A model generated the notes under the pieces. That model worked only from the letters and a program-made list of their open reading frames with translations, searched no databases and had not been told where the DNA came from. Of a stretch of DNA of 64,000 bases, positions 16,501 to 63,507 are shown piece by piece. The stretch is from Patagioenas fasciata (lineage: Eukaryota; Chordata; Aves; Columbiformes; Columbidae). The DNA is taken from the NCBI RefSeq assembly GCF_037038585.1, contig NC_092525.1, forward strand, positions 20,108,867 through 20,172,866, given 5' to 3'. A program made the translations under genes and the position numbers. Each line of letters starts with the position of its first letter. Within the stretch, counting starts at the first letter, position 1.

Positions 16501-19500
16501 ATGACTCTGAGTTTTACATGTGTCCTGCACACTAGTACGTACAGTTACAGTACTTCATATTCTCTTTCTTGTCCGCCTTACACCATCAGGTTTGTTTTTC
16601 GTGTGGCAACTGTTGGTTTTGGATAGTCGAGTTACCCGGAACTACCTTTTCTTTAACATACACAGACAGGTCTGATAATTGATTTGAAAAATCAAATCCA
16701 TCTTCTTTATTGTGTCCGATTCCTGACAAGGATTTTAGATCAGAATTTGAAGATCTAATTTTTTGTTTCAGCACATTCACAAATATTTTTTTAACTCATT
16801 TTTCAGCAGCAGGTGAATAGTTTTATATGTTGGATGACTCGGGACCCTTTTATGTGAGCACTGCTGAGACTTCATTGGCTAGAAGCACACTGTGACAGAG
16901 AGCTCAAGTTTTCTCAAGAGATTCAGAGTATCTTATAGTTTTAATTTTAGATCTGAAGAAGGAACACATAGAAAGCTCAAAAATTGCCAAGGATGCGTTT
17001 AGGTCTCTTTTATGCTAATGAAATTTGGCTAATGATCAGAACATAAGGAAGTAACCACAATTATAGGGTGGTAGTTTCCTCAGATGCAATCTGCAGCATG
17101 GGTAGGTCCTGAACTAGAGATTGCATTAGTGTTGTGTTTATTTTAAAAATACAGCCCTATTTTTTCGGCAGTATTGGGATAGACGTACAGGCAAGTAGTC
17201 ATACCCTTGTGCTTAACCATAAATGCAAATAAAACTAAGGAGTAAGAGTTTAAATACTGACGATTTTATTACTATCTTCTTACTGTCCCATCTCTCTCTT
17301 TCTAGATGGTCTGCTAAGACATGTGCATTCAGACCATTAATTTCCTAGTTTTAAACTTCTCCAAATATTTTTTGAGATGGATGCTGCCTCTGCTGCCTCT
17401 GTTCCAGTTAGTGCTTTGGGTAGTCTTGTTGACTTCCCAGTTTCATTTCTCTGTTCAATCAATGTTTAATAACTAAACTGATAGTTTATCTGGCTAACTG
17501 GGAAATGGTGCATCAGGAATATATGACAGACTACCCAGGGATATTTTTATTGTTTAGTGAAAATATGCACTGCAGTAGACCCAGAGCACTTGTTAAGGCA
17601 ATAGAAAAAATACATTCCACTTCAAATAATGACTTTATCTTCAGAGAATTATGAAAATGGCTTTACCAAGGGTAAGTCATGCTTGACCAACCTCATAGCC
17701 TTTTATGAGAATGTAACAAGGTGGATAGATGATGGCAGAGCGGTGGATGTGGTCTACCTTGACTTCAGTAAAGCCTTTGACACAGTCCCTCACAGCATCC
17801 TCACAGCTAAATTGAGGAGGTGTGGTCTCGACAATAGAGTAGTGAGGTGGGTTGCAAACTGGCTTAAAGAGAGAAGCCAGAGAGTGGTGGTCAATGGTGC
17901 GGAGTCCAGTTGGAGGCCAGTATCTAGTGGAGTGCCTCAGGGGTCAGTACTGGGGCCAATATTATTCAATATATTCATTAATGATTTAGACGAGGGAATT
18001 GAGTGTACTATCAGCAAGTTTGCTGATGACACTAAGCTGGGAGGAGTGGCTGACACGCCAGAAGGCTGTGCCGCCATCCAGCGGGACCTGGACAGGCTGG
18101 AGAGTTGGGCGGGGGATAATCTGATGGAATTTAACAAGGGAAAGTGTAGAGTCCTGCATCTGGGCAGGAACAATCCCAAGTTCCAGTATAGGTTGGGGCA
18201 TGACCTATTAGAGAGCAGTGTAGGGGAAAGGGACCTGGGGGTCCTGGTGGACAACAGGATGACCATGAGCCAGCACTGTGCCCTTGTGGCCAGGAAGGCT
18301 AATGGCATCCTTGGGTGTATTACAAGGGGGGTGGTCAGTAGATCGAGAGAGGTCCTCCTTCCCCTCTACTCCGCCCTGGTGAGACCCCATCTGGAATATT
18401 GTGTCCAGTTCTGGGCCCCTCAGTTCAAGAAGGACAGGGAACTGCTGGAGAGGGTCCAGCGTAGGGCAACAAAGATGATTAAGGGAGTGGAGCATCTCCC
18501 TTATGAAGAAAGGCTGAGGGAGCTGGGGCTCTTTAGTTTGGAGAAGAGGAGACTGAGGGGTGACCTTATTAATGTTTATAAATATATAAAGGGTGAGTGC
18601 CATGAGGATGGAGTCAGGCTCTTCTCAGTGGCAAACAATGATAGGACAAGGGGCAATGGGATCAAGCTGGAACACAAGAGGTTCCACTTAAATTTGAGAA
18701 AGAACTTCTTCTCAGTGAGGGTAACAGAGCACTGGAACAGGCTACCCAGGGAGGTTGTGGAGTCTCCTTCCCTGGAGACATTCAAAGCCCGCCTGGACAC
18801 ATTCCTGTGCGACCTCACCTAGGCGTTCCTGCTCCAGCAGGGGGATTGGACTAGATGATCTTTTGAGGTCCCTTCCAATCCCAAACATACTGTGATACTG
18901 TGATACTGTGAAAATATATTTATACTTTAAATGTTTAAGGTCTACAAGGAATTTAGAAAGTGACCTTGTCTGTGCTTACTTACTAACTAGTATATTTGGC
19001 TTGAAAAAGCCTCTAGAGGTTTCTTTTTTTCTTCAGTAGCCTCGTTAAACTTTCAAATCCCCATTCTTCAATTGATATTTCCTAATTGATACCCAGAGCA
19101 GAATGTTGTGCCACGTTCCTTATTTCTGTAGGAGACGGCTGTTTTAAGAAGTCCTGATTTGCATTTACTATACCCTGATTTACTAGGGCAGGGCTTCCCA
19201 AATCTGCATGAATTACATACGACGAAAGGTGGTATTTATGACTAAATAACTGCTTGAGAAAACTACCTCTGTCGCTTAGTGTGTATTAATAGAGTCTCAT
19301 GCCCTAGAAAAAAGGGAGAGGAGTTGCCCAGGTTGACGTCTTCTATTTTGATTTCTGAAGGGCAATTTGCACCTTGTGTTGGGGGATAATAATGACAAAG
19401 GAGTGATTTCTGCATGAAAATACTTATGGCTACGTTCCATGCTCTGGACTGTTTACCATACCAAATAGATCATACCAGGTTTATAGACAATTGTTGTAGA

Positions 19501-32600: not shown

Positions 32601-35600
32601 GTGTGGTGTTTGTATCACAATACTCCTGGTTGAAAATTATTTTCTCTATAGTAGTCTGTTTTAAGCTATTTCACTGCCATCAAAATTCTCTGTGCTGAAA
32701 ATCCATGTTGTTTTCCCAGATCTTGGGAGCATTTGAAGGGGATGATCACAACGTGTGGTTGGTAGTAGAGGCAGCAGGACAAGACTTCCCTGTCAGCAAT
32801 ACGCTGCGGCTTCTTTATGTTTCCAATCCATATTGCAGAGCAGGGTTTAGTCACCCCCGGTAAGGACTGATATTAATAATTTGCATTTCCAGATCCCTTG
32901 AAGTACCTCATAAATAATGAACTTTTTCCATAGTACCTCCATAGGTGGACTCTAACAGTTTTATTTGAGATAGTGAAGCTTGGTAGGACAGTGATTTTAG
33001 CAAAGCTTCAGAGAAGATCAGTGGAAAAACTCTGGGGTTGAACTTTGGCGTTGGGAATCGTTCCTTAGCTTCCCACAGCACAATGGGTAATGTCTGCGTG
33101 TCTGAAACCAGACACTGCGGAGCACATGCAAGTGATAGGCTTTGGGTGATTGTTTTTCACATTTTGATGTGTATCTTCAGAGGTTGGATGTACCTCTATG
33201 CATACTTGACTAAGATATCTATTCTTGATGTAGTTATTTCTTAACTACTTTCTTGTATGTGCAAACTGGTTATTGTTTGTTTGCTGTCCATCATCACTAA
33301 GGAGCTAATGCCTAAATCTGTTAACATGGTGGTGGTTTAATCTCAGAAATCGTTTAATCTCAAATTTGTGATTCTACCACAGAATCAGGGTTTGTTGTGT
33401 ATTTATGGTCACATTAACTGTAAAATAATGCTGCATAAAAATTGGCTACAATTCTTCCTTTCTCGTGGCCCCACTCCATCTTTTTCTTATGCTGAATGCG
33501 TCTCTGCTAGAAGTAGCAAGAGTCGCAGGGAGAGGAATTAGGATAAGCAGAATGTGCTCTTAAATAAGTGAAGTAAAAGATGGACTTGGATGTTCTGCCA
33601 GTGATAACTTTATTGCTGGGGCTGGCAATTGTTGGCAGATGTGTAAAGAGAGCTGGGTGTCTCTGCTGTCCCTTGTTGCTGCCTACACAAATTGCAGGCA
33701 TGGAGTAAATGTGCTGTTTGATCTCCTGGAGCCTGAGGCTACGTGCCAAAGCCAGGCCTAGCTCATTCCTGCCTGCCTTCTTGTGGCTGTGCTGCTTAAA
33801 GGCTGCTTTTCTTGGTACAAACCAGGGGCTCTTACCCTGCTTTATGAATGGATGCAGAGAATTGTTATCTCCAGTACATAAATTCATTATAACTATTAAA
33901 CTAAGCTGAAATTGAACCTGTTGACCTGGAAGTGAATGGCTCCATAACATTTCATTAATCCTTTGAGATGTTTAATTCTTGCTAATTTGATATTTCAGAT
34001 ATGATCTTCTCTACAGATATAATGGCTTAATTAGTATACATTACATGATGTCGCTTCACACTACAGCGTGTACAGTATTTATCCACTAGAAAAGTAATTC
34101 AGTAGAGCTCAATTATAATACATTGACTAGAGCATTGAAGTTAAAAAGGATATGTGCAGTCATATTTTAAGCATAAACATTTTTCAAGCTGTTGATATCA
34201 ATCACCTACTAAAATTGATCCTAAACCTTTTGTTACAGCTTACTAAAATATTTCCATTTAAAATGGGATTCTGACAATACTGGATTAATTAGCAAATCGT
34301 AACCAACATTTGGTGGGAAAACAGTTCATAGAAACCTGATGTGTAACTTAGTCACCTATATAATATCCTTAACACAGTCTCGTTTTGTTGACCAGCAAAA
34401 CATGTGAAAATACAAGTTTGAAGGAGAACTTTGTGATATGGTTGTCCTCTATGTCTTAATCTGATAAAAACACTGCTAACTGGCAGCACTTTTTGATGAT
34501 AGACACCAAAATATGTGCTAAACACATTTATTTTGTAGCATTCAGCTTGCAAAGCTTGTAGCTGAAGCCACCTGGTTGAGAACACACAGCTCCAGGTAAC
34601 TGTCCAGGACAGTGGTTCCAGTTGGAAGTGCAGGGAACAGGCAAAGCAAAAGGTAATAATTCTTTGGGATCTGGTCATTTTGCTGCTACCTTCCTGCGAA
34701 AGTCAGGGGAGGTACAGGTACACAGAAGCTCATCTTAGAAACTGTTCACTTAACAAGTGGAAGTAAAACTTGCGCTTGTGGCATGTGCTGTATGATCTGA
34801 CCTGCCTACTTTTTGCTTCAGCTTTCACTGGCATGTGGATTTGCATGGCGAAGATGTGTTTATTATAAGTGTATTTGGAATACTGTGGTCAGCCTTATGG
34901 TCGTTCTGTCTTTTGTTTGTAATGGCAAGTAGAAACTGTTTCCCAAGGTGAAAAGGCTGTTTTCCAAAGTGAGTTCCATCAAAATGATACAAGTTGTTTT
35001 TTTCCTGTTTGTGAGTGACCTGGTCAAGTCCCTCCAGCTTCTCTCAGGTTCTTACCACGCCTTTGCTACACAATCCAATGTAGAAAATACATCAAGTGCC
35101 ACAGAAGTAGGGTGAGCAAACCAACATTTCAACATTGAGTCAACGTAAAAAAGGCTGTAAGGTGATCCATGCGTGAGCAACAGAAGCTCCTGAAAGTGCT
35201 AAATGGTCTGAAAACTTGATACACCTTGTAGGAAGCTCTAAAGTTCCTATGCAAGTTTAATTGCAGGTTCTTCTTAGACCTTTTCAAATGGCTGTTGAGG
35301 TCAACCTGAGGCTACAAAAGATGCAAGGATCTGCTGGAAACGTGATATTTCTTAACTCCCTCACTGCCTAATTTCCATAATTGCCTAGAGGACTGGGTAT
35401 TTGACCCAATGGTCAAATGGAATATTTTCCCCCAACTTTTAATGAATGTTTTTCATGTAGGTATTGAAGTTGGTGTGTACAGAATAGTACCCAAATTTAG
35501 ATGACTCCTGCCCCAACCCAGATGCTTCCCCTCCTCCCATTCTCTGCAATCTTAATCTGCAAATTACACTTGATGTAATTAAATTTATCTCTTTTTCCTT

Positions 35601-36664
35601 TCTGGTGACATTGATCTGTATTGTATATTTGGACTCTAGTGAATCTGAGTTCCTTATTCCTACCTGGGATGTGTTGTCGTCAGATTTATTCCATACGTGT
35701 GTGGGATAAATAATGAAAGAGTAAATGAGGAAGGAATACTGTAGCAAAGTTGCTGCAGTGTGATTTTTAGCCACAAGATGGCAGCTGGGCTGCCTGAGCT
35801 GGTCTGGAATCTGATGCGTTGTAACACCTTCATTTTTAGTCTGGCTTCAGTAAATTATCAAGGTGATTTTCGCTTTCATTCAGTGTTAACTGCAATAACT
35901 CTTCCCTAGAGTTAACTTGAAACATCATCCTTGTGAACCAGTGAATCTCAGGTGATTCTGTTGGAGGTTTTTGGTTGTTCTTTATCTGGGTAGCAGGTAA
36001 CTTTACCAAAAGCTGCTGTCTGGCAAGCCTTACTTTCCCATAATAGAAATTATCAGAAAGGAGTGACTGAGTGAAAAGTTGTACATGCAAAAATTAAGTA
36101 TGCACCATTGGATTTACACTTGTAGTAGCCAGTTTTGAGCCCTTACTGCAAATGTGGTCTGCTTTCCTCCTATGGTAGGATAACAAATGAAGTCAGAACA
36201 TTTTATTTTGGTGCTGATGGCATGCTTGTCTCTGTCTAATGACCAAAGCAGGATCTGTGCTCTAAGGAGATGAGAGATGTGCTTCCACCTGTGTTTCTGA
36301 TGTCCTGGGACTTGCTTTTTTCCTTCCTCTCCAACCTGTCAGTAAGCAGTGAGCAGCTGCTGCATGAGGGAAATGAGCCGGGAGCTGAGGGTGACCGCAG
36401 CACCAGCTGTGGATGTATAGGATGGCTATATATCTGAGGTGAGGAGAAAATGAAAATATTAGGATAGGCTGCTTGTATTTTCTTCTCTACAATTGTGCTT
36501 TTAGAGTATGAGGGATAATGGACAGAGGAAGAGAGAGCGGTTCCTTCACATCAGCCAGCCTTACTTGTTCAGGAGATGGTGAAATGAGAGGATTCTGGTT
36601 TTGTTCTGTGGTCTCAGTGCTTGGTGTTCTTTCCCCACTCCATGTGAGGTAATTCATGAACTAC
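29626..36664. other. non-coding DNA downstream of OMA1
   Basis: AT-rich sequence without recognisable exons. It includes a TATG/CATA-rich patch at 31,543-31,584 and AT-rich DNA at 31,920-32,030. DAB1 usually follows OMA1 in amniotes, so this may be intergenic or far-upstream intron of that gene; no DAB1 coding exon was seen. Confidence 0.45.
31543..31584. repeat. short CATA/TATG simple repeat
   Basis: Alternating purine-pyrimidine sequence (GCATATGCATATACGTATGT and continuing) resembling an impure tetranucleotide microsatellite. Confidence 0.6.
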
Positions 36665-36949
36665 AAGGGTGTGGCAGAATGCAAATCCCCTTTCTCCCCC
36701 TCCCTCCTTCATCATGGAAGGAGTAGGCACATCCCCCTCTCTCTCTATGTGAGGCTAACAGCTTCTTTTGTTTGGCCCCAGAGCACCCTGGCCAGGGCCA
36801 TTAGAAGAAGGGATTGCCAAGGCACCAGTGAGCCGCTGGGCACCTCTGACCAGTGTGGGGGATGTTTGGAGGCTTCAGGGGCACCCCACACACGGTGTGA
36901 GGGTGCAGAGAAGCTTCTAGAATGCCTACAGTCAGGTCTGATCAGCCAG

Positions 36950-36956
36950 TATAAAA
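36950..36956 (+). promoter_or_regulatory. LTR TATA box
   Basis: TATAAAA in the context CCAGTATAAAAACGGG, with GC-rich DNA after it. It predicts a start site near 36,980. Confidence 0.7.
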
Positions 36957-37017
36957 ACGGGACTCTCTCGTCGAGACTTGGCCCATTGTCGCCGGTCTCT
37001 CGGAGCGCGAGCTGAAG

Positions 37018-37093
37018 ATGCTGCCGCCGAGAGCCCCCCCTCCCCGGGATGGAGACTCTGCTTGCCTTGCCGCCACGCCACGTGTGTGAGTAA
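37018..37093 (+). other. two overlapping short upstream frames in the retroviral leader
   Basis: ATG at 37,018 opens 23 codons to TGA at 37,087-37,089, and ATG at 37,049 opens 14 codons to TAA at 37,091-37,093. Both end just before the first hairpin (37,099). They could reduce scanning ribosomes from the 5' end or be chance; no homology is recognised. Confidence 0.3.
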
Positions 37094-37098
37094 AACTT

Positions 37099-37576
37099 CT
37101 CGCAAGATTGCGAGTATATTTATCCTTTCCGTGCACATATGCACGTGTAACTTCCCTTGCTTAATACAAGCACGTATAACTTTATTTCCTCGCACAATCG
37201 CGAGTGTATTTATATTCCGTGCACATTTGCACGCGTACTTTAAATTATTTCCTCGCACAATCGCGAGTGTAACTTTATTTCCTCACACAATTGTGAGTGT
37301 ATTTTCCTCCCATGCTTCCATATAAGCACGTGTAGTATTTTCCGTGCACATTCGCACGTGTAAGTAAATTAACCCTCGCACAATTGTGAGTGTATTATAA
37401 ATTTATCCTCGCACAATCGCAAGTGTATTTTCCTCCCGTGCTTCCATATAAGCACGTGTAGTATTCTGTGCATATTTGCACGTATAAGTAAATTAACCCT
37501 CGCAGGATTGCGAGTGTATCATAAATTTACCCTCGCACAATCGCGAGGGTACACTTTCCGTACTCACTACGAGTAC
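37099..37576 (+). repeat. array of sixteen short hairpins in the LTR R region
   Basis: Inverted repeats with 5-7 base stems and 4-7 base loops occur at 37099-37114, 37130-37145, 37158-37172, 37189-37204, 37218-37233, 37252-37267, 37282-37297, 37313-37328, 37343-37358, 37375-37390, 37408-37423, 37437-37456, 37467-37482, 37499-37514, 37530-37549 and 37560-37576. There are three main stem families: CTCGCA/TGCGAG (variant CTCACA/TGTGAG), CGTGCA/TGCACG, and GTGCTT/AAGCAC; the last hairpin is GTACTC/GAGTAC. Most are followed by TGTA and a U-rich spacer. Stem arms often change together, which points to selection on pairing. The function is unknown; packaging, dimerisation, RNA export, translation and protein-binding operator roles are all possible. 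Confidence 0.9.
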
Positions 37577-37797
37577 CTATATCTCTTTAAGAATAATCCC
37601 GCACCGTGTTCAGCCAAGTGTGTACTCCTTTGGGACTCAGGGGCGGTTCCGGCATTGTTTTGGGTGAAGCCACGTGCATGCACACTGTGGACCTCCTATT
37701 GTACTAGTTGCTGCCCCTTAATAATTTTCCTCAACTGATACCCGAACCTATATTTAAGTCACTTTTGGAGTGCTAAAACCCTGTTTCTCACCGGTTT

Positions 37798-37803
37798 AAT
37801 AAA
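37798..37803 (+). terminator. LTR poly(A) signal
   Basis: AATAAA followed about 20 bases later by GT-rich sequence (AAGTTGTTTTGGACCCTGTT), placed about 55 bases before the end of the LTR as expected for the R/U5 border. Confidence 0.7.
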
Positions 37804-37862
37804 AGTTGTTTTGGACCCTGTTGTCCCTTAAACTAATCTCGGGGTGCATTCCGTGACAATTT

Positions 37863-37880
37863 TGGCGCAGCGAGCAGGGT
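37863..37880 (+). other. putative retroviral primer-binding site
   Basis: TGGCGCAGCGAGCAGGGT begins four bases after the LTR end. A leading TGG (complement of tRNA 3' CCA) and the position are those of a primer-binding site. I could not assign the tRNA with confidence by eye. Confidence 0.65.
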
Positions 37881-37887
37881 ATCAGAG

Positions 37888-38559
37888 ATGGAGGAATTAT
37901 TTAGAGGGTTGAGTAATATTTCTGCAGCAACTTGGCATCTCGTGGTGTGTTTCCTTCTGGCCGTTTGCTTTAACTTAGCGCGGGATGTGCGTAAACTTGA
38001 CTTCCAAATAGAGGAAGAAGTTTTGCGGCAAAACAAACGCGCGGGCTTTTTGAGTGAACGCTCCTTCGCCCCCCCGCGTATCGACACTGAAAACAGTGTT
38101 GATGAAGAAGAAATAGAAAGAGAGGATGTGCGCTCTCTCATTGAAATGGAGACGTGTGCCGAGGGTGATCGGATATTGTTGAGTGGTAGTTCGGACGCTT
38201 CCCCACCCTCTACCGAGGGATCCGGTACTGGTGGCGCTGCGACCGGTCCGTGGGAGCCTCGGTGGGTTCGCTATAGCTGGCCGCTCCCTTCCCGACCGGC
38301 CGGTCCCGATTGCCCATCGCAGTCGAGACCGCGATCTGTCCCTAGCCGCGGTGCCCAGACGGTCCCTCCCCCGTACCGGCAACTCGGAGGGTCCGACCTC
38401 GGGAGTGCCGGCGACCGCCCCGGGACTGGCGGCGCGAAACGGGGCAGCCTGAAAGAGCCGCTAGAAATACATGTCCAGTACGGGCGTGACCCAAAAAACG
38501 GAGGCAAACTTCCCCCCGTAAAGCTTCTACCGCCAGTCCGCGCACCTCCTCCCGGCTGA
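37888..38559 (+). CDS. gag-like N-terminal frame of the endogenous retrovirus
   Basis: An open frame of 223 codons starts at an ATG in good context (GAGATGG) only 29 bases after the LTR. Residues 16-31 are hydrophobic and could be a membrane anchor, followed by a charged segment (about 32-90, rich in Glu) and a long Pro/Ser/Gly/Arg-rich part with PPPY at about residue 161, the classic late-domain motif of retroviral Gag. There is no Gly at position 2, so N-terminal myristoylation is not expected. No major homology region or zinc knuckle is present, because the frame stops at 38,557-38,559 before a capsid. Position and PPPY argue for Gag; the family is not recognised, and it could be a lineage-specific leader protein instead. 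Confidence 0.55.
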   Translation: MEELFRGLSNISAATWHLVVCFLLAVCFNLARDVRKLDFQIEEEVLRQNKRAGFLSERSFAPPRIDTENSVDEEEIEREDVRSLIEMETCAEGDRILLSGSSDASPPSTEGSGTGGAATGPWEPRWVRYSWPLPSRPAGPDCPSQSRPRSVPSRGAQTVPPPYRQLGGSDLGSAGDRPGTGGAKRGSLKEPLEIHVQYGRDPKNGGKLPPVKLLPPVRAPPPG

Positions 38560-39678
38560 CCCCCCCGCACCGTTCCTGGCATCCAAGTCCTGGTGGTGTG
38601 GGGCGGGGCAGCCCGACCTCGCGGGCGCTGGCAGGCAACCACCTTCCTCGGGTTGGCCGCCTCCCCCTCCTCGCTGCGAGCGGGTGCGGCCCCCCCCACT
38701 CTTTCAAACTAAAGAAAAAAAGCCGCGGCTTGGCACCAGCAACCCCGCCCTGGCTCAGTGCTCTCTCTGAGGTTCAGAGGCAGCTCGCATTAGGACCCGG
38801 CAATATGCCTCAGCACTGCTGCTTACTAAAAGTAGCTGCTAACATTACTTGCTATCAAAAAATTAACCGGCACTCCACTGCAGCTAAATGGGGCATGATG
38901 GAGGCCATTAATGATTTTGATAAAGAGTCAATAACAGGCAACGACTCGATAAAGACCTGCCCCCAAACAAAAGGTCCAAGAGATATTTTCTGCTCAGAAC
39001 CTTCTGAGCTAGTTCAACATGTTATTCCACAGAGGTAGTTTTAAGCACACACAGTGCAGGCTTGTGAATGAAACATTTTGACCCTAGATGAAAACAAAGG
39101 GGAAATGCAGGAAAGTGTTTGGGGACAGTCACTCTGGGTTTTGATCAGCTGTAGTATTGAATTGAACATCCTAGTCTGGTGTGTTTTCAGTCAGTGGATT
39201 TTGTTGGCTTCTTTACATGTTCTGTGCATGTTTTATCTGAAAATGTACTTTGCAGAGATCCTAGCTTCTTTTGGTCTCTCAAGTCTAGCAAAAAATTCAA
39301 ACTACTGTGAGGCTGTCATGTGTAACCAGATATTCTTCCTTGCTTATTGTCTCTATTGTGATTAAGGTCATGACAGCTTTGCATAATGGAGCATCCTCCA
39401 AATACCTGTCAACCAGCTAGCTATATCCATGAAACAGTATAGGTTTTTTGGACTGAGCTGTGGAAAATTAATTGAATAGCTGACCTACCCTATCACCCCA
39501 AAGAGAACTATTCCCTGTCTCCCTGCTTTGAACTGAGCACAGTTTCAAGAGTCACAAAACTATATTTAATCCAATCGCCAAAATTGGAGTCCTGGCTCAT
39601 GTTTGGTGGTAGATTTAACGATAAGACACATTGCGAGTGTCTTCAATAAGCTGTCAGGAGCAGGAAACCCTAAGCACA
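38560..39678. other. unassigned DNA between the gag-like frame and the 3' LTR remnant
   Basis: The first 150-200 bases are still GC- and CpG-rich like the gag region. After about 38,800 composition drops to host-like values. An open frame at 38,598-39,038 spans this change and has no recognisable retroviral motif. A 7-base perfect stem (AAGACAC/GTGTCTT, 39,623-39,643) with loop ATTGCGA precedes an AATAAG and the terminal remnant, reminiscent of the LTR hairpins. Rearranged provirus, captured host DNA and a second insertion are all possible. Confidence 0.4.
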
Positions 39679-39698
39679 GGGTGTGACATTCCGTGACA
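39679..39698 (+). repeat. terminal remnant of the 3' LTR
   Basis: GGGTG, three extra bases, then CATTCCGTGACA, which matches the right end of the 5' LTR, followed directly by the AAGGG duplication. Only about 20 bases are clearly homologous. Confidence 0.6.
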
Positions 39699-40985
39699 AA
39701 GGGTGAAGGGAAATAACTGAGGTTTGGAGGAGCTGAACATGTGTCAACTGGATTTCAGACTGCCAGGTATTTGAAGAGCGTCTTCAGATTCTGAGCCTGG
39801 AGAAAGTTACTATGTTTTCTTTAAGCGCTTTAACAGAATGGCAAATGATTCTTGAAGCAATCAGAACCTCATCTAGCACTGTGTTTGGTGGAGTTTTCCC
39901 CACTTCATTGCTATATCCCCAGCCGTATCACCCTCCCATTACTTTGGTAATAGAGATGAGGCTCTACTGGTCTGCATTTCACAATTTTTTCAGCCAACAA
40001 GCTAGAAGGAAACAAAACCCTTGAGAAGCAGCAGGGTCCAATTTTCGCTGTCGACAATGAGGCCTCTATTCTGTTCTCACTGAAATCTCTGGCAAAAGTC
40101 CCAGTGGTTAGATCTGGATTTCTCCCTCCTTAAAAAAATATTCTTCCTTTTGTGCTTTATCCTCTGCTTGTCAGCATCAGCTGATTATGAGCTCCTGCAC
40201 AGATGACATTTTATCTTCAGTAAGCAGGAAGGAGGCATGAATTAGGGCTTAGAAATAATGTTCAATAATTAGCCACAGAGGAAGGAAAACATCCAAAAGA
40301 AGTACACAGAAAGAATTGACTTACTTCATTTGACTGGGCTGGAAAGTTCAGCTGTAATGATAGTAGTTGAATTAATTATGATGATTTGGTGACAAGCTTG
40401 CTTGTCCCCAGATGAAGTATATTTTTTTTTAACCAAGATGAAGTAACTGCTGCTGTGTCAGAATCACAGATATCAGGTATTCCTTGCATACTGCACACTC
40501 ATAAAGGATGTCATGTGTGGTGGCCCAATTTGATCACAGGTTAACCCTTAAGCCAGGGTTTGGATAAGTCTGTGGAAAGCTTTGGTGTTTTCTTTAAACC
40601 CTTCTTTATTGTGATTAACTATGATGGACACAGTCTTAGACAATATGGTGGGTTGTGAACTCTGGCATTAAAAGGACAAATTCTTATATTGTAGCTGAAG
40701 CTGGGGGGTGTCCTGGGGCTGTGCCAAGAGTGGGACCCTGTCTCTAGTAGCGACTGCTGCCATGAATGCTGCTGATCTGGCATCATCATCTATCCCCACA
40801 CCTCTGTTACCTCAATTGCCTCTGCCCTGGCTGCAGCTTTAATGGCTGGCGGTGTTTGTGGGCATAGCTAATATGACACACATATTACACAGGATATGTA
40901 CCCTGTATGGCATTGAAGAACTTCTCGTGGCTGTTTCAGGGTGTAGTATTTAGATGGGCTCCAGCTTCAATTCTTCATGTCTCTC

Positions 40986-62939: not shown

Positions 62940-63505
62940 CACAGTAACACAGTATCACAGTATCACAGTATCACAGTACATTTGGGATTGGAAGGGACCT
63001 TGAAAAATCATCCAGTCCAATCCCCTGCTGGAGCAGGAACGCGTAGGTGAGGTTCCACAGGAATGTGTCCAGGCGGGCTTTGAATGTCTCCAGGGAAGGA
63101 GACTCCACAGCCTCCCTGGGTAGCCTGTTCCAGTGCTCTGTTACCCTCACTGAGAAGAAGTTTTTTCTCAAATTTAAGTGGAACCTCTTGTGTTCCAGCT
63201 TGATCCCATTACTCCTTGTCCTATCATTGTTTGCCACTGAGAAGAGCCTGACTCCATCCTCATGGCACTCACCCTTTATATATTTATAAACATTAATAAG
63301 GTCACCCCTCAGTCTCCTCTTCTCCAAACTAAAGAGCCCCAGCTCCCTCAGCCTTTCTTCATAAGGGAGATGCTCCACTCCCTTAATCATCTTTGTTGCC
63401 CTGCGCTGGACCCTCTCCAGCAGTTCCCTGTCCTTCTGGAACTGAGGGGCCCAGAACTGGACACAATATTCCAGATGTGGTCTCACCAGGGCGGAGCAGA
63501 GGGGA
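62940..63505 (-). mobile_element. young CR1 LINE fragment inside the TTTTA array
   Basis: On the minus strand it contains the last 150 or so codons of ORF2, the CR1 3' UTR and four or five TGTGATAC units, then runs into the pentanucleotide array. The 5' truncation is at about 63,505, again next to the array. Over the shared part it differs from the copy at 17,659-18,910 at only a few per cent of positions by eye. Confidence 0.93.
62971..63486 (-). CDS. CR1 ORF2 C-terminal fragment with lost stop codon
   Basis: An open frame from the truncation point, including [15 protein letters not shown] and [13 protein letters not shown]. At the position of the stop codon in the other copy (TAG) this one has TAC, so the frame continues for about 22 further codons into the 3' UTR. 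It lacks all reverse-transcriptase catalytic motifs and is a relic. Confidence 0.88.
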
Positions 63506-63507
63506 AT

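Follow-up and report, generated by a model that had tools for sequence, protein, structure and literature searches.

A sixteen-unit hairpin array in the predicted R region of a probable class III-like retroviral relic in Patagioenas fasciata, and its possible role as an RNA element

Why should a retroviral long terminal repeat (LTR) carry sixteen inverted repeats at nearly regular intervals, and did they act as RNA, as DNA or not at all? The question is raised by a 64,000-base stretch of the Patagioenas fasciata genome, the whole of which is called the window below. An earlier note, made from the sequence of the window, had described the array and suggested a role for it as RNA structure.

Architecture of the array and its retroviral setting

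The array runs from 37099 to 37577 on the plus strand and was delineated from the sequence, hairpin counts, shuffle tests and an alignment of the units. The sixteen inverted repeats and the spacing near 30 bases that had been described are both confirmed: there are sixteen units, with centre-to-centre distances of 27.5–34 bases (mean, 30.8 bases; s.d., 1.9). They belong to four stem types, A (CTCGC/GCGAG), B (CGTGC/GCACG), C (CGTGC(TT)/(AA)GCACG) and D (GTACTC/GAGTAC), which follow one another in the order A B C A B A A C B A A C B A A D. GC content is 54% in the hairpins (270 bases), compared with 25% in the linkers (209 bases). The base directly 5′ of the unit is C in 15 of the 16 cases, and the four bases 3′ of the stem are TGTA in ten units, TATA in four, and CGTA and GGTA in one each. 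The loops of types C and D are unlike those of types A and B.

The statement that nearly all units can pair fully was too generous, as only eight of the sixteen have at least six contiguous Watson-Crick pairs. The stem family given as CTCGCA/TGCGAG does exist, but only units 1 and 14 have it complete; pair 6 is A-C in units 4, 6, 9, 11 and 15. Units 3, 8, 11 and 16 are mismatched further out.

The array contains a higher-order repeat of four units, made up of units 5–8, 9–12 and 13–16, whose period is about 124 bases. Tandem Repeats Finder reports it at 37215–37551 (period, 124; 2.7 copies; 83% matches), with two full periods at 37304–37551, and two 88-base copies inside the array are 88% identical. 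Read from order and flanks, the D unit occupies the C slot in the last of these repeats. A covariance search of the 64 kb against Rfam gave no match at the gathering threshold. The three sub-threshold matches in 36600–39800 (E = 1.3–3.8) are not convincing; SprX, for example, covers part of the array with E = 1.3 and 17.5 bits, where the gathering score is 80.

The LTR context that had been proposed for the array holds up, with TATA box, AATAAA, terminal ACA and primer binding site all present. The 5′ LTR (TGTGGCAG...GTGACA) spans 1,189 bases (36670–37858, plus strand) and has the terminal TG and CA, the TATA box, the polyadenylation signal and the primer site in the expected order. The array was also correctly placed in the predicted R region: it sits between TATAAAA (36950–36956, plus strand) and AATAAA (37798–37803, plus strand), from which R would start near 36980 and end near 37820. 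If the start and poly(A) sites do lie there, R is about 840 bases long. The primer binding site TGGCGCAGCGAGCAGGGT (37863–37880, plus strand) starts four bases past the LTR end and matches, at 18 of 18 positions, what we take to be the 3′ end of vertebrate tRNA-Ser(UGA).

The probable right terminus is CATTCCGTGACA (39687–39698, plus strand), an exact match to the last 12 bases of the 5′ LTR; this sequence occurs just twice in the window and not at all on the other strand. The five bases AAGGG follow the right terminus (39699–39703) and also precede the 5′ LTR (36665–36669), and may be a target site duplication. AAGGGTG occurs once in 34000–37000. The left LTR end at 36670 was chosen with the AAGGG match in view, and both the left end and the target duplication rest on it. 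A second full copy of the LTR is absent from the window, and the sequence at 39687 shows only the last 12–13 bases and weak similarity. The best local alignment for a 3′ LTR scores 35, above the shuffle maxima for 39500–39710 (29 for U5 and 34 for the LTR; n = 100), but not above those for 38560–39710 (37 and 47); a fuller 3′ LTR was therefore rejected and only the exact terminal match was kept. An 11-mer at 39630 that matches unit 14 was also rejected as a remnant of the array, because 11-mers of the array recur in the window 11 times on the plus strand, this instance included, and seven times on the minus strand.

With one readable LTR, the element is a defective relic. The primer site and the LTR ends make it a probable class III-like retrovirus, an assignment that is likely rather than proven since the scans brought up neither gag nor pol. 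A retroviral Pfam domain is absent from the seven overlapping plus-strand stretches scanned within 37888–39362, three stretches scanned for coding use downstream gave no Pfam match, and a structure search by sequence returned a single match with E = 0.28. XtERV-S, a class III endogenous retrovirus (ERV) of African frogs, resembles the element in its TGT...ACA ends and in having a TATA box followed by a polyadenylation signal, according to the accessible text of the paper (PMC8278194). Its primer site is given there as Ser(AGA/TGA), and the serine tRNA matched here would be tRNA-Ser(UGA). The two differ in that the XtERV-S LTR measures 705 bp, with fewer than 290 bases from TATA box to poly(A) signal compared with about 840 here, and in that XtERV-S has gag, pol and env, of which we recognised no trace (PMC8278194). 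The main text of that paper contains neither 'R region' nor 'tandem', and 'hairpin' appears only in its reference list.

Pairing, covariation and rates of change

The array is real and pairs well beyond chance. At least five contiguous Watson-Crick pairs are found in 14 of the 16 units, whereas 300 dinucleotide shuffles averaged 2.2 such hairpins and never exceeded 7, and 262 other 478-base tiles of the window averaged 3.3 with a maximum of 8. For at least six pairs the array count is 8 (shuffle maximum, 3; tile maximum, 6). When G-U pairs are allowed, the array has 15 units with at least five pairs (shuffle maximum, 13; tile maximum, 18) and 11 with at least six (shuffle maximum, 8; tile maximum, 10). 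The excess thus shrinks or disappears once G-U counts, and it lies in the Watson-Crick stems, as tiles reach 18 against 15 in the array when at least five pairs may include G-U. A fold-versus-shuffle comparison had been named as a check, and its outcome is clear: the predicted RNA fold of 37090–37585 is more stable than that of shuffled sequence on the plus strand (z = −8.78) and on the minus strand (z = −7.86), with none of 100 shuffles as good in either case.

Predicted folding of the whole R region (36980–37820) gives no support to sixteen independent hairpins. On the plus strand, a unit's own hairpin has a probability above 0.5 in nine of the 16 units at unlimited span, seven at a span of 150 and 11 at a span of 60; these modest numbers reflect arms that are able to pair across units. 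The corresponding minus-strand numbers are 8, 10 and 13.

That pairing is about equal on both strands would suit a DNA element, in which a dimeric protein would bind each unit as a dyad, with units phased at close to three helical turns, and the array would be an EBNA1-like enhancer, insulator or anchor. The unit spacing (30.8 bases; s.d., 1.9) and the location of 30 of the 31 CpGs inside hairpins are in keeping with this idea. There is also a precedent in the family of repeats of EBV oriP, described in the accessible text of PMC3218044 as 29 to 32 copies of a 30-bp unit with a palindromic core; these repeats share with our array the unit length, the single palindrome per unit and the long array. 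However, they belong to a DNA virus, are bound as DNA and share one core consensus with some mismatches, whereas here the stem types covary (see below): half-sites change together and no A/B hybrid occurs among the 16 units. Phase coherence is weak as well (0.34 for centres at 10.5 bases and 0.50 for spacings). We consider a DNA role unlikely.

Covariation and rates were assessed by comparing the sixteen units of this one locus. As the units are related by duplication, similarity alone is no proof. Type A has T-A at pair 2 and C-G at pair 3, where types B and C have G-C and T-A, respectively; type D, compared with C, keeps pairs 4 and 7 through double changes and loses pair 1. Watson-Crick pairs fill 59 of 72 cells in the 12 arm pairs that are distinct, and 81 of 96 in all sixteen units; none of 20,000 arm shuffles did as well in either test, even though unit 3 was set one base off, which understates the observed pairing. 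In the unit alignment, 90.6% of the 96 cells pair (73.6% when shuffled) and the covariation score is 0.479 (0.211 when shuffled); none of 500 shuffles was as good in either measure, and none reached the observed number of cells changed on both sides. Sliding the partner by 1–3 columns lowers the paired fraction to 14.6–54.2%, and RNAalifold on the alignment returns the same six-pair stem. The stem types therefore covary, but they record few independent stem-change events. Pairs changed on both sides number 4, with 2.9 expected from shuffling (122 of 500 shuffles), and further pair types number 6, with 6.0 expected (386 of 500), so that neither shows an excess. Random 3′ arms with an equal number of changes match as well with a probability of 0.012 from A to B or B to A, 0.052 from C to D and 0.002 from D to C.

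The arms of types A and B change more slowly than their flanks. In the eight type A units, differences occur at 26 of 280 compared sites in the arms (5′ arm, 7/140; 3′ arm, 19/140), at 72 of 140 (51%) in the 5′ flank, at 41 of 168 in pair 6 and the loop and at 27 of 140 in the 3′ flank; the 3′ arms are thus little below the 3′ flank. For type B the figures are 3 of 60 sites in the arms and 16 of 60 in the flanks. For type C they are 3 of 30 and 6 of 30, and the type C 5′ arm (3/15) is on a par with its flanks (2/15 and 4/15). Across the array, then, arms mostly vary less than flanks between copies, and the hairpins look selected for pairing.

Much of the remaining variation can be traced to CpG decay. 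In pairs 1–5 of units 1–15, seven of 150 stem bases are off type, and six of these are C>T or G>A changes at CpG. Two variants had been cited as keeping the pairing, CTCACA with TGTGAG at 37282 and a unit with a G-U pair at 37375. Both exist, but they are weak evidence: a C>T or G>A change at CpG yields either of them, and every type A arm contains a CpG. Pair 6 is A-T in seven units and A-C in five, which suggests that A-T in some A and B units is TCGC decayed to TTGC. The ancestral stem would then have had five pairs and a six-base loop, ACAAUC or ACAUUC. Wobbles in pairs 1–6 do not favour the plus (RNA) strand: units 10 and 13 carry a plus-strand G-T, and units 4, 6, 8, 9, 11 and 15 an A-C, which reads as G-T on the minus strand. 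Of the earlier RNA-structure reading, folding beyond chance and covarying stem types stand; the cited variants, the strand of the wobbles and the nine of 16 hairpins in the whole-R fold do not help it.

These data also bear on the idea that the array had no function, being a palindromic seed multiplied in tandem, with arms perfected by quasi-palindrome template switching during replication or reverse transcription. The clear tandem and 124-base higher-order duplication would be expected from such a history; so would the small number of independent stem changes, and the sixth pair (A-T in seven units, A-C in five) may partly be CpG decay. Harder to accommodate are the regular spacing, the four stem types, every one of them with at least one perfect unit, and arms that were kept despite mutable CpGs next to type A 5′ flanks differing at half of their sites. 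An array without function is possible, but on balance rather unlikely.

The CpG content of the element (36670–39698) shifts abruptly. The observed/expected ratio is 0.09 in U3, 1.01 in 36950–37098, 1.6 in the array, 0.63 in 37577–37858, 0.99 in 37859–38720 and 0.26 beyond. This pattern could mean either a CpG-rich viral R region and leader, or an escape from germline methylation like that of a CpG island.

A candidate RNA element and its precedents

The explanation we favour, with a probability of roughly 45%, is that the array was a cis-acting RNA element of an extinct class III-like retrovirus, a series of hairpins on which a protein could dock at either end of the RNA. It would have grown from a short stem-loop by duplication, both in tandem and in blocks of four units, with the pairing of every unit under selection while the virus replicated. 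As part of R, the array would occur twice in a full-length transcript, once at each end. The AT-rich linkers may have spaced many small hairpins apart, so that one RNA-binding protein, either Gag or a host factor, met similar loops (ACAAUC or ACAUUC in A and B units not yet changed by CpG decay). Multivalent binding could then have marked unspliced RNA for export or packaging. We put the chance that the array acted at the RNA level, by whatever route, at about even.

Structured R regions are known. Stem-loops have been described in long R regions, with class III ERVs and spumaviruses among the long ones, whereas R measures 11 bases in MMTV, 21 in RSV, 70 in gammaretroviral ERVs and 150 in lentiviruses (accessible text of PMC3601003). 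Those R regions are long, as ours would be, and their residual conservation is tied to stem-loops; unlike here, no tandem array of like hairpins is described in that text. The earlier note knew of no LTR with such an array. This claim survives in that the open-access matches listed, judged by their titles and abstract beginnings, include no hairpin array in an LTR, but it needs qualifying, since stem-loops in long R regions, class III included, are already on record (PMC3601003). What appears to be new, among those matches, is a tandem array of this size.

Foamy viruses offer a different precedent. There, a structured R region controls RNA processing, with a splice donor upstream of the poly(A) signal acting together with RNA structure (accessible text of PMC3694450). 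A similar arrangement here would let the R structure and a donor-like site direct splicing and hold the 5′ poly(A) site in check. The sequence GTGAGT (37086–37091, plus strand; U1 duplex energy, −7.1) does start 13 bases 5′ of the array and 712 bases upstream of AATAAA. However, it has T instead of G at position −1, and sites inside the array match or beat it (37293 and 37386 at −7.4, and 37360 at −7.1). The resemblance is one of description, and the foamy virus structure surrounds the donor with a few stem-loops where our array has sixteen (PMC3694450). We regard an RNA-processing role of this kind as very unlikely.

Relatives of the array and its LTR were sought in viral and prokaryotic DNA collections. 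The unit pattern retrieved no viral contig. A shorter version retrieved three, which were dropped as their likeness to the LTR extends over 12–20 bases with E = 0.031 or worse. The primer-site pattern also retrieved no viral contig; four contigs from bacterial metagenome-assembled genomes were dropped, three being alike over the 19 bases searched and one being 87.5% identical over 32 columns.

That this is an undescribed kind of retroviral element, in which sixteen covarying R hairpins form a multivalent docking tract at both RNA ends and whose carrier may hold a piece of SPATA9 (see below), is a tentative proposal that we hold with little confidence. If true, the fossil would preserve a tethering array of natural design, with sixteen units. 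A pattern for annotating LTRs follows from the units: C..GC, 6 to 10 bases, GC..G and, mostly, then TGTA, repeated every 30 bases or so.

Other features of the element and the window

The octamer ATGCAAAT lies near the start of U3 (36679–36686). We take it to be a POU-factor site, which could bear on germline expression.

An open frame of 223 residues (37888–38559, plus strand) begins seven bases 3′ of the primer site. Its first 95 residues match the C-terminal part of the SPATA9 profile in Pfam with E = 1.7 × 10⁻⁵ and 24.8 bits, below the cut-off of 27, and the weak similarity is located in the first 87 residues. The frame is possibly a captured piece of this host gene. A search for homologues of the frame gave 695 candidates, none with E ≤ 0.01, and two pattern matches among viral contigs, neither of which was confirmed. 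Capture of host genes by ERVs is known from crocodilians, where KIT-ligand and nectin3 are reported examples (accessible text of PMC4299795).

A purine-rich stretch, AAAACAAAGGGGAAA (39091–39105), followed by TG, lies downstream of the open frame and ahead of the right terminus. It resembles a polypurine tract save for one C, and might mark the former start of the 3′ LTR.

Elsewhere in the window, 17629–18911 and 62955–63506 contain a reverse transcriptase frame (RVT_1, E = 6.1 × 10⁻²⁵). The segment 18359–18911 has an inverted copy 44 kb away that is 96.7% identical over 553 columns, and eight-base tandem repeats adjoin. These are presumably young CR1-like elements. Finally, 1322–1717 matches the thyroglobulin type-1 and EpCAM N-terminal domains, pointing to an EpCAM-like exon or gene.
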